Shown piece after piece: positions 12,621 to 64,000 of a stretch of DNA of 64,000 bases. The notes beneath the pieces are model-generated. The model saw only the letters and a program-made list of their open reading frames with translations, ran no database searches and had not been told where the DNA came from. This DNA is from Artemia franciscana (Eukaryota > Arthropoda > Branchiopoda > Anostraca > Artemiidae), in contig NC_088879.1 of assembly GCF_032884065.1 (NCBI RefSeq), positions 16,932,489-16,996,488 of the forward strand. Direction: 5' to 3'. Each line of letters begins with the position of its first letter. Within the stretch, counting starts at the first letter, position 1. Made by a program: the position numbers and the translations under genes.

Positions 12621-12719
12621 TGTGTTTTCCATGAGAAAAAGCCCATTCAGTGTGGTTTTCAATGTTTTTGTTTCTGGGGGGAGGGAACTGGGAGGCTATA
12701 TTTTCATGTGGCACCAAAG

Positions 12720-15700
12720 TACAATAATGGATAGTGATTTGAATGAAATCCTGTTATCAAGGTTACAAGAATTAGAAAGAAGGTCAATTTTATTTAATTC
12801 GGTTTTTCAAGCTCCTTTAGCTCATGATATTAATGATATTTCATTTAATATTCCACCAAACAAATATGTATTTTGTAATGAAATGAAATGATTGTTCTTG
12901 AATTGTCAGGGATATGTGAGCAGATGGGTGTGATTGAGAAGTTATATTTAACTCAGGCACTGATATTATAGGCCTTTGTGAGACTTTCCTAGATTTTAAT
13001 TCTGCAAATAAAATTGATGTAAGAGAATACCAATTTTTTCATAGAAATAGAACTCAGCAAATACATGGTGGTTTGGATTTTTAATTAAAAATTATATTCT
13101 TGCATGGATGAGAGATGACTTTTTACAATTTGATATTGAAATGAATTTTCAATGTTGTGTAGTTGAATGTTTTCTGCCTAGTAATGAAAGACTTTTATTT
13201 GTAGTGATAGACCATCTCTTCTAGTAAGGTAAACTTCATAAGTAGAATGGAAAATATGATAGTTTACCTTTCAAGTCTGCATATTCCATTCATGGTCCTT
13301 GCTGATATTAACTTAGACCTAATGAGATGCTTACCTTCAGACCATCACAGGACTGATAATTATGCATTACAGTTTTTGGAATGTTCTTTTTCTTGTAATT
13401 TATATCCAGTTTGTTTTATCCTGTCATATGTAGCCGACTCATCTGATTTGCTCATTGAGAATATTCTTTTGCCTTATACATGAATTATGTCTGATTATAA
13501 GATTCAAAAGGCTTTGATTAGGGAGATCATTATTAGAATACAAGAAAGATAAATCTTTCTCTAAAAAACATATATGGTTTAAAATCAGCCCAAGGTGATA
13601 TAGACTAGAGTGATTTTAGAAGAGAGAGAACAAAATAGATCACTGGATATTTTTATAGAGTTTTAAATGAACAATTAGATCATCATTGTCCTTGTGAAAA
13701 ATGCATTGTAAAAAAAATTTTTTACTGAGAAAACTATGGATTAATGAGTCACTCCTGAGATCAGTTAATGAAAAAATCGTCTTTATAAGATAATAACAGA
13801 ATATCCATTACCTGATAATTGTATACAATTTAAAAATTATAAAAATCTATTGGTGAAAAATCTTAGAAGGAGTGAGAAAAGGCATTTTGAAAATTTCTTT
13901 AAGAATGCGCATTTTCCTAGAAAAAAAACTTGGGATCTAATTAAACAAAAGATTGAAGACAATTGTAATAATTTTACCCAGAATTATTAATTGATAAGAA
14001 GGGTCTTGAGTTAAAGGGGCATGGAGCTATTGCAGAATCTTTCAGTTATCATTTTGCTAGTTTTGCATCTGATGTTACTCCTGGTCTTGTATTGACTTCA
14101 GCTCAGTCATATAAAGAATACTTTCCTCAATCAGAGGACACAAATATGTTTCTGGCACCAATTAGTTTTGATGAATTCAAAAAAAAAATTATTAGACTTA
14201 AAGTTAGTCAATTCACTAAGTTCGGATGGGTTTTCAACTAATCTTTTGAAACACCTTGCATCTGTACTTTATATACCTCTTGTTTGTATTTTAAAATTGT
14301 GTTTATCTTCTGGGGTATTCCCTACTAAATGGAAAAATGCCCTACCTATTGTAATACCTTCTCCTTTGTCAAAGATTCTATAAAAGTTATTTCAAAAGAA
14401 TGTCATCTTATCTGGATAAAAATATTTTAACAAAAAGTCAGTTTGTTTTTAGATTGGGTTGTTCTAATGAACAAGCAGTTGCTATATATAGTAAATATAT
14501 AGTAAACTTAATGATTCAATGAATAAAAAAAAATACATTTGATGTTGTTAATTATTCCATTGTGTTTGAAAAATTGAATAACTCTGAATTTTTAGAAGAG
14601 CATTTGATTTAATAAAGTCATATCTATGAAATAGCAGATTTAAAGTAGAAGCCCGAGGCCATCTGTCTCACCCCAACTCCCTGGATTATATTGAAGTGCC
14701 CTGGGGGTCTATACTTGGATTGTTACTATATATATATATATATATATATATATATATATATATATATATATATATATATATATATATATATATATATATA
14801 TATATATATACATATATATATATATATATATGTATATATATATATATATATATATATATATATATATATATATATATATATATAGATGATCTCCCTAATT
14901 GTCTATCCTATAAAGATAGCATGGCACTTATGTTTGCAGATGATACTGTGGTATCTGTTGATGCTGAAACCCCTTTATTATTGATTGGGATTATGGCGTC
15001 TGAATTGAAATCAGTTATCCAGTGGTTTCTTGTTATCATCATTTAGTCCTGAACTTGTCTACGAGAGGATATTTGGTTTTTGGGAGATCTAAGCAAGGAG
15101 TTGCTAAAGTTGGGATTGATGAGTTAGTTGTTCTGGGTTTAGATTAGAATTAGAAGGGTTAAGACATATATATATTTTGGGATTATTATTGATGAACTTT
15201 TATCTTTCTGTAGTCATTCTGACCACCTCCGTATAAAATTAGCCCAAAATTTAGGATGTTTACATTGATTAAAGTAGGTTTTTCCTTTTTCATTAAAATT
15301 TGTTATCATTCTTTAATAGAATTATACCTTAGATATTGTCCCACTATCTACCTAAATACATTTTTTAGTCATTTTAATCCCCTCCAGACAATGCAAAATA
15401 AAACTGTAAGAATCCTTGGTACTTTCTTTCATCATCCTGCATGACTTCAAATTCTCTTTGAAACAAAACTTTATTTTTATTTCTTTATATATTAAACCTA
15501 TGATATATACATAATTCCTGCAAAATAGGGAATTAATTCTCAAGGTGAGGCTGAGGTCTGGTTTTGGAGAAGTGAATTCTCTTTGCTTTGGTGGCCAAAA
15601 AAGCAAGTCTTACAAGTTTAATGATCTGAATGAACCAATGATGTGAATTCCGTGCAGCCATCAATTGATTTTAGATAAAATAAGTAAAGGAACTCATGCT
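12720..15700 (+). mobile_element. Decayed LINE (endonuclease plus RT)
   Basis: Endonuclease pieces: FLNCQGY (about 12,899), IIGLCETFLDF, then HGGLGFLIKNYILAWMRDD and VLADINLDLM (about 13,300). The RT follows: VNSLSSDGFSTNLLKHL, CILKLCLSSGVFPTKWKNA (about 14,290), [37 protein letters not shown] next to the microsatellite, then DDLPNCL and FADDTVVSV (about 14,935). The C-terminal block YHSLIELYLRYCPTIYLNTF is at 15,306-15,365. The RT C-terminus closely matches the element at 30,490-31,905, so they are one family. Many stops. It lies upstream of the first WASHC1 coding exon. Confidence 0.82.
14726..14884. repeat. (TA)n microsatellite inside RT coding
   Basis: About 160 bp of TA with two CATATA/TGTATA interruptions (about 14,811 and 14,831), located where the RT motif normally reads LLFLIYINDLP. 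The flanking RT frame is kept on both sides. Confidence 0.97.
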
Positions 15701-15752
15701 TACAACAAGACACCTGTGTCTTTTTTTCTTTTGACTTATTTGTCTTTTCTAG

Positions 15753-61683: not shown

Positions 61684-61855
61684 GTTTTCTAAAGATTCCT
61701 TGGACCATAGTGATATGGTTACATCCCTTGACTGGCGATCATCTGAAAAAGAGCTAAATGCCTCAGCACCTCTCCTAGGTGATGCCCCGCCCTCAATAAA
61801 GAGGAGAGGTGGTCTAAGGAAAATTCAAGCTGGAAATCTATACTACCAACCACAG
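61684..61855 (+). CDS. WASHC1: WASHC1 fourth coding exon (copy A')
   Basis: Same as 26,689-26,860, 172 nt with identical protein. Third copy in the window. Confidence 0.9.
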
Positions 61856-62887
61856 GTGACTATTGCCATGTTTTTGTCCGTGTCGTTCAAGATACCCCCT
61901 CCCCCTTTTCAAAGATTTGACCTTGAGACTTGAATGTAAAAATTTTTGCAAAACAAAACAAAAAAAACGCACAAAAATGTTGTTCCTTGTATATTTTTGC
62001 TGATTCTCTCAGTTTGAGTCTAAAAAAAAATTGCTCAGTATGGCTCTTGCTGGAACGAATGTTTTTTTTTTCAGCTTATACCGAGCTTCGATCTAAATAT
62101 AAATCTTTTCTTTTTATATAGGTGTACATTTTATGATGTTTTTCGGTAGGCATATTAAAAATAAGTTGAACACTAAATAAAAATATAAATTTGGATGCCA
62201 AAAGTTGAATAAAATAAAGTTTTTATGCTTGGAATTCTGTTATTGTTAATAATTGTTGCGTTCAGTTTAGTAAACATTGGTTTAATTTCATGAATTTTTG
62301 TTGTTTAAACTGAATGTTAGTCAGTTTATTTCAAGTTTGAACTCATTGTTATTTTTCTCTGTTATTTTGCTCTTTTTTTCGCCCTTTACTGTTCATGTTT
62401 TTTTCTAATGCAGTTTCTGTTCGTGATCTAGGTGGAATTTTCGCTACTTGCATATATTCATAATGCTAAAGTATAAATTAATTGTAGTTTTTTTCTAATA
62501 ATTTCATTGAAAATAGCCGTTAAACATTTGAAGTGATGGATGCAAAAGGAACAGCAAAACGCTGGCGACAATTAGTGATATATTTAGATAATAAAGGGCG
62601 ATTTTTGACTTCTGTAGTTCCACATGATCGCTAATCCGCTATTGGAATCCTCGGAAATCCTCGAAGGCCCATTCACAATGAGATTTTACTCATACTGAGT
62701 TTAGCTAGCGCTAATTTGAGCAAGTAAGAATTTTTCTAGTGATCAAAATACAGCTTTCACAACCTGTACAGATTGTGAAAGCTGATGGCTGTTTAACTTA
62801 GTTAGAAATCAGTAATCATTTCTGATATATTTTTTTTTTCATTTTTTATATCAATGGTATAAATAAGAACCAGGTTTTAATTATTAT

Positions 62888-64000
62888 GGCACTTGGTATT
62901 AACCAAGTGACATATAGCAGTCGCAAATTCTGTTGGTCTGTCTGTCTGTCGGTCCCGGTTTTGCTACTTTAGGCACTTCCAGGTAAGCTAGGATGATGAA
63001 ATTTGACAGGCGTATCAGGGACCCGACCAGATTAAATTAGAAATAGTCGCTTTCCCGATTTGACTATCTGGGAGGGGAGAGGGGGCCGGTTAATTCGGAA
63101 AAAAATAGAAAAACTGAAGTATTTTTAACTTACGAACGGTTGATCAGATCTTAATGAAATTTGATGTTTGGAAGGATTTCATGTCTCACAGCTCTTATTT
63201 TAAATCCCGACCGGATCTGGTGACATTGGGGGGGGGGGAGTTGGGAGGAGGAAACCTAAAATCTTGGAAAACACTTAGAGTGGAGGGATCGGGATGAAAC
63301 TTGGTGGGAAAAATAAGTACAAGTCCTAGATACATGATTGACATAACCGGAACAGATCCGCTCTCTTTGGGGTAGTTGGGGAGGAGGGTTAATTCTGAAA
63401 AATTAGAGAAAAATGAGGTATTTTTAACTTATGAATGGGTGATCGGATCTCAATGAAATTTGATATTTAGAAGGATATCGTGTCTCAAAGCTCTTATTTT
63501 AAATCCCGACCGAATCTGGTGACATTGGAGGGAGTTCGGGGGGGCCTAAAATCATTGAAAACGCTTAGAGTGGAGGGATCGGGATGAAACTTTGTGGGAG
63601 AAATAAGAAGAAATCTTAGATACGGGATCGGCATAATTGGAACGGATTCGCTCTGATTGGGGGGGGGGGAGGGATAATTCCTAAAAACTAGAAAAAACGA
63701 CGTATTTTTAACTTACGAAAGAGTGATCGGATCTTCATGAAACGTCATATTTAGAAGGACCTTGTAACTCAGATCTCTTATTTTAAATCTCAACCGGATC
63801 CAGCGTCATTGGGGGGGGCAGTTGGGGGAGGGGACCGGAAATCTTAGTAAATACTTAAAGGAGAGATCAGGATGAAACTGGGTGGGAAGAATAAAAACAA
63901 GTCTAAGATACGTGACTGACATAACCGAACCGGATCCGCTCTCTTTGGTGGAGTTGGGGGGGGGGGTAATTCAGAAAAATGAGGTATATGTAAATTACGA
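62888..64000 (+). mobile_element. HINE/Helentron-like element (copy A', cut)
   Basis: Counterpart of 27,893 onward, truncated by the window edge after about four core-unit anchors. Confidence 0.72.

Follow-up and report, generated by a model that had tools for sequence, protein, structure and literature searches.

A probable scaffolding error around the WASHC1 locus in the Artemia franciscana genome assembly

In the genome assembly of the brine shrimp Artemia franciscana (1.27 Gb, 6,468 contigs), the gene encoding WASHC1 lies in a region that reads, as printed, like a large duplication combined with an inversion. We analyzed a stretch of 64,000 nucleotides that contains this region (C17:16932489-16996488, hereafter the window), in which two runs of N delimit three contigs, named here A, B and A'. 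A fourth contig, D, follows A' beyond the end of the window, and coordinates above 64000 extend the window numbering along C17 in the same genome. The arrangement is most probably explained by a scaffolding error around one locus, for which the order would be A, reversed B and D. To judge by the sequences of these contigs, there is a very high likelihood that the inversion of B is an artefact, and the region as a whole is most likely an assembly artefact and not a real biological feature. The overlaps between contigs, the orientation of the exons and the redundancy of A' can be read directly from the sequence, and we infer that A' does not represent a genuine second copy.

Contig overlaps and breakpoints

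The window and its continuation contain the following contigs and gaps:

1-30225, plus strand: contig A, right part, with the left flank and WASHC1 exons 1-4 (from the scan for N and the flank search)
30226-30284, no strand: gap of 59 N, counted in the window
30285-47583, minus strand: contig B, 17,299 bp, apparently inverted and misplaced, fitting reversed between A and D (overlaps A by 3,540 bp and D by 35 bp, and carries exons 4-6 in minus orientation)
47584-47683, no strand: gap of 100 N, counted in the window
47684-64000 in the window, true end 65244, plus strand: contig A', redundant with A (17,538 bp align to A, the last 23 bp to reversed B)

The segments shared by these contigs are:

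12690-30224, plus strand: part of A repeated as A' (99.84% identity to 47684-65221)
26685-30224, plus strand: end of A overlapping reversed B (98.9% identity to 47583-44032, the match ending at contig ends to within 1 bp)
44009-44031, minus strand: 23 bp of B also present in A' past its match to A (alignment and end comparison)
30285-30319, minus strand: 35 bp at the end of reversed B that match the first bases of D exactly, 65345-65379 (two occurrences in the genome, both at these contig ends)

Contig A is free of N over the 20 kb that precede the window and on through 30225, and beyond the end of A' (65244) a gap of 100 N precedes contig D (65345-131257). An earlier, sequence-only reading of this DNA had described repeated contigs with breakpoints at the N runs, and self-alignment confirmed both points. 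The three pairwise alignments (A/A', A/B and B/A') have six ends in all, and every one of them falls on a contig end to within 1 bp. The direct alignment of A 12690-30224 with A' 47684-65221 spans 17,542 columns at 99.84% identity (17 mismatches, 6 gap openings), and inside the window this match is limited solely by the window end. The alignment of A 26685-30224 with the reverse strand of B (47583-44032) spans 3,562 columns at 98.9% identity (7 mismatches, 5 gap openings), which bears out the overlap of about 3.5 kb that the same reading had proposed between the two contig ends. The corresponding segment of B (44009-47583) also aligns in reverse with A' 65244-61680, at 98.97% identity. Within the 124 kb compared, repetition in B is confined to its final 3,552 bp, and the remaining 13,747 bp (30285-44031) lack a near-identical partner. 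A', in turn, is a contained contig: 17,538 of its 17,561 bp align to A and the other 23 bp to reversed B.

Two details of the sequence-only reading fared less well. Its figure of 35 kb does not hold as the size of the repeat, the copy measuring about 17.5 kb and 35 kb being the distance between copies. Furthermore, the proposed start of A' in the middle of a long interspersed nuclear element (LINE) was not recovered with Pfam, which matched none of four pieces taken from 12598-15043. Just left of the repeat start in A, the segment 12213-12533 belongs to a repeat that is dispersed across the genome, its scored copies being 83-85% identical (40 scored of 6,769 candidates).

Gaps of 59 N and 100 N separate A, B and A', the configuration expected of a false duplication, and in the window no breakpoint of A, A' or B is crossed inside a contig. 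The pertinent passages of a published study describe a gap between copies as a mark of false duplications that was absent from the true ones in that study (PMC9516828). The argument that real duplications rarely break at gaps therefore has published backing, but it must be taken with two reserves: assemblers may also break at the edges of repeats, and one duplicated block just outside the window has both of its edges inside contigs.

Two joins order the contigs. The 23 bp by which A' extends beyond its match to A are the next bases of reversed B, so that a contig other than A backs the step from A sequence into reversed B. At the other end of B, an exact-match search of the 1.27 Gb for the 35-mer shared by reversed B and D returned two occurrences, both at contig ends, and none for a control pattern. 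On this sequence evidence, the junction of reversed B with D constitutes a second join, independent of that between A and reversed B.

Structure of the WASHC1 gene

The gene split across the window is probably a single WASHC1 gene, the exons of which were placed as follows:

Exon 1: A 15769-16005 and A' 50763-50999, plus strand (PF11945 genome search; starts at ATG)
Exon 2: A 20317-20463 and A' about 55314-55460, plus strand (splice sites and phase; region with two genome matches)
Exon 3, the least certain: A 24143-24267 and A' about 59139-59263, plus strand (splice signals and resemblance to vertebrate WASHC1)
Exon 4: A 26689-26860, plus strand; A' 61684-61855, plus strand; B 47579-47408, minus strand (frames and splice sites)
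Exon 5: B 42739-42891, minus strand (phase 0 splice sites; surrounding kilobase with one genome match)
Exon 6, proline-rich: B 30317-30448, minus strand (phase 0 splice sites)
Exon 7: D 70585-70740, plus strand (open frame, splice sites and phase)
Exon 8: D 72475-72579, plus strand (open frame, splice sites and phase)

All eight exons are followed by GT, exons 2-8 are preceded by AG, and the phases agree at every joint; exon 3 was chosen among 53 candidates for its splice signals and its resemblance to the WASHC1 of vertebrates. The order printed in the scaffold is 1-2-3-4, then 6-5-4 backwards, 1-2-3-4 again and finally 7-8. Flipping B restores collinearity, with exons 1-4 of A (plus strand), 4-6 of B (minus strand) and 7-8 of D (plus strand) following one another along A, reversed B and D, as do the overlaps between these contigs. 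The earlier suggestion that WASHC1 becomes one collinear gene once B is reversed is thus supported by exon order, strand and phase.

Domain searches are consistent with this reconstruction. The joined product of 409 amino acids matched WASH_WAHD with an E value of 1.4e-38, compared to 1.7e-26 for the exons of A alone and 3.7e-13 for those of B alone, and the N-terminal WAHD domain scored 133.5 bits against PF11945 (cut-off 24.2). The WH2 motif remained below its cut-off of 23.1, at 19.8 bits on D exons 7-8 and 16.8 bits on the joined product. When the genome was searched in six frames with PF11945, two matches were reported, namely the exon 1 copies of A and A'; as the other WASHC1 exons went unreported, this search does not amount to a complete census.

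Taken together, the end overlaps and the order, strand and phase of the WASHC1 exons indicate that B is inverted and out of order and that A' is redundant in its place. The true order would run from A into reversed B, with a 3.5-kb overlap, and on into D from 65345, with a 35-bp overlap. B would then be the missing middle of the locus and no allelic contig. The scaffolder would have left the end overlaps unused, placed B backwards and put A', a near-identical contig of the first half of the locus, between B and D; these errors may have arisen because short contigs (17.3 and 17.6 kb) were weakly linked at long range.

Three of the seven contig ends examined (30285, 47583 and 65345) were also seen to lie within 35 bp of a WASHC1 exon edge. 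The right end of B is 4 bp before exon 4, the left end of B is 32 bp after exon 6 and the start of D is 3 bp inside exon 6, the proximities at 30285 and 65345 being tied to each other through the 35-bp overlap. This pattern possibly reflects chance or a transcript-based assembly step.

Copy number

To gauge copy number, segments of the region were searched against the genome. The region of exon 2 gave two matches, and a single match was obtained both for the kilobase around exon 5 in B, at 100%, and for an AIMP2-like large exon at 4792-5589 (plus strand). A repeat-like kilobase of B (31000-32000) had one match at 100%, with other copies at no more than 91%. The kilobase left of 12213 (11212-12212) matched the genome once over its full length, and its other matches were short pieces of repeats (40 scored of 1,557 candidates). 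The single matches of this kilobase, of the exon-5 kilobase and of the AIMP2-like exon count in favor of one locus. For 29640-30220, three full-length matches at about 100% identity were found, in A, A' and B (40 scored of 3,293 candidates), and the other matches listed were partial, covering at most about 270 of 581 bases.

Evidence against a single locus and alternative explanations

Several observations weigh against a scaffolding error around one locus, and they concern sequence variation, the right end of D and the 3' part of WASHC1. The first of these bears on the sequence-only reading, which had described misplaced allelic contigs: the inverted, misplaced position of B and the redundancy of A' stand, but the term allelic is not secured, given that each of A, A' and B has private variants and that A' abuts the end of D exactly. 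Along the 3,562 columns shared by the three contigs, A carries 5 substitutions and 1 indel of its own, A' 5 substitutions, and B 2 substitutions and 4 indels. Three distinct sequences are hence present, whereas one diploid locus would supply two. Moreover, the odd one out among them switches 8 times along 15 sites (a count that excludes two G-run indels and retains an 11-bp G-rich indel), so that two haplotypes would need contigs switching phase at least 8 times along those sites. Consensus errors, pooled individuals and a real second copy are all candidates for the origin of the third sequence.

The differences between A and A' spare the coding sequence, with none of the 17 substitutions and none of the 6 indels inside exons 1-4, a point in favor of one locus. 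The substitutions are unevenly distributed, one interval of 9,460 bp having none (P about 3e-5 under an even spread, in a test picked post hoc with the data already seen). A' is most likely an allele or an under-collapsed copy, and less likely a real second copy.

The second set of observations comes from the right end of D. The last 477 bp of D are 100% identical to A 12213-12689, with A' beginning at the base that follows, which suggests a possible earlier join between A' and the right end of D. Directly before this tail, D 113462-130779, which makes up most of the right part of this contig, is a 17.3-kb direct copy, at 99.84-99.93% identity, of a segment further along C17 (185586-202981, here G), with both edges inside contigs; the junction of G-like with A-like sequence, at D 130780/130781, is outside the window. 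From their sequence, D and A' appear to be parts of a single former contig that combined three segments lying near each other and was cut 477 bp past the junction. This contig might have been a mosaic, cut by the scaffolding step for want of support at the junction. An older copy at 107394-107810 aligns with A 12131-12538 at 75% identity, spanning 12213; the repeat in A continues across that position, and the left side of D there is unlike that of A. Since the older copy spans 12213 as A does, the junction in D, and not that in A, would be derived or artificial, a call based on this single older copy reaching past 12213.

We also considered the 477-bp tail of D as a young dispersed repeat, and rejected this on the ground that, setting aside the two copies at 100%, its next-best copy has 85% identity (40 scored of 6,769 candidates).

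The third set concerns the 3' part of the gene. WASHC1 is expected to have an acidic C-terminal end. Motif scans for the last WASHC1 exon yielded no convincing candidate, although such scans can miss one. In addition, the WASHC1 3' part has a second copy about 165 kb downstream on C17 (66386-72659 versus 230212-237916, 91-94% identical in DNA), in which exons 7 and 8 are open and 94% identical in protein. This downstream copy could represent a duplicate that has since diverged, or else a divergent allele.

The leading alternative is a real local direct duplication of the first half of WASHC1, which we regard as unlikely. According to this explanation, A' follows the right end of D, and B has been collapsed from two copies and misoriented; the left part of D and copies of G and of A would have been brought together by template switching or in a tandem event. 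Such an event would account for D and A' abutting to the base, for a copy of G with edges inside both contigs that is followed by 477 bp of A, and for three different sequences in the shared part. It would also fit the extent of D plus A', which starts at the end of reversed B and stops 23 bp into unique B, like a contig lying between two copies of B. However, the odd junction and the gap are just 477 bp apart, which would fit a rejection of this junction by a misjoin breaker, and the two abrupt junctions in D, between places within about 200 kb of each other, fit a mosaic contig as well. The single genome match of the exon-5 kilobase of B and the single full-length match of the kilobase left of 12213 also speak against the duplication. 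A real second copy of A is unlikely, and we give similarly little credence to a recent real local rearrangement in which the WASHC1 5' half was duplicated in direct orientation and linked to the right of D through a 17-kb segment copied from a place some 70 kb downstream. Were this rearrangement real, a true copy-number variant would be hidden beneath the artefact, with B collapsed and the rest misplaced.

It is very improbable that A, A' and B represent three haplotypes of one locus, derived from a polymorphic inversion or from pooled individuals. The three distinct sequences and the uneven A/A' substitutions, with their 9,460-bp empty interval, would agree with this origin, but no contig in the sequence read has a breakpoint that inverts B. 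A pool accounts for the variants and not for the order of the contigs, and so supplements a scaffolding error without replacing it. Finally, a true inversion of B together with a true copy A', exactly as printed, is extremely improbable: it has the scaffold order itself in its favor and nothing else, it would leave WASHC1 broken, and it needs six alignment ends and the 35-bp and 23-bp matches to coincide with contig ends by chance.

Other features of the region

At 28096-29096, and likewise at 45155-46184 and 63091-63979, lies a tandem array of 3.5 copies, about 77% alike, in which the repeated unit measures about 290 bp. Located about 1 kb before the end of A, this array may have impeded assembly. 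An interspersed repeat of about 150 bp at 29761-29910 has many copies in the genome (91-98%). Searches for anchors returned no Rfam match at the gathering score and no tRNA gene.

The AIMP2-like exon at 4792-5589 matched Thioredoxin_16 (E 4.2e-7) and AIMP2 chains in PDB (E 0.001-0.0035). In B, an open frame of 402 amino acids resembling a coiled coil (35456-36664, plus strand) matched DUF4200 (E 1.1e-8) and would sit antisense in WASHC1 intron 5; its search against solved structures gave one weak, unrelated-looking match (E 0.019). Further downstream, a very young, abundant repeat was observed at about 112461-113217, with 39 other scored candidates at 98-100% over about 750 bp (40 scored of 5,286), and the contig after D matches 244963-248512 at about 97% over 131358-134691, from its first base.

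Comparison with known assembly errors

In the scaffold as printed, several apparent gene fragments take the place of one gene: two WASHC1 5' halves, a middle piece in the wrong orientation and, apart from these, a 3' part. A tally of gene copies, of inversions or of segmental duplications in this genome would be led astray here. The 35-bp and 23-bp end matches illustrate that a strong case for such an error can be made from an assembly alone.

Each component of the error has a described counterpart. The portions of the HiC-Hiker paper that deal with orientation state that short contigs are hard to orient by long-range contacts (PMC7672694), and B, a contig of 17.3 kb placed backwards, resembles such a misoriented short contig. 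In the corresponding part of the purge_dups paper, linked-read or Hi-C scaffolders are said, to its authors' knowledge, not to handle heterozygous overlaps (PMC7203741). The region resembles the retained haplotigs and heterozygous end overlaps treated there in that A' is contained and the ends of A and B overlap, and differs from them in having three sequences and in an identity, 99.84%, that seems high for alleles kept apart. The closest likeness in kind is to the heterotype and homotype false duplications described in the relevant sections of PMC9516828, where half depth serves as a test for the allelic kind. As in those cases, near-identical copies separated by gaps lie on one scaffold and a gene is split into extra copies; in contrast with them, the present region also includes an inverted contig bearing the middle of the gene, and it was judged from the assembly sequence alone.

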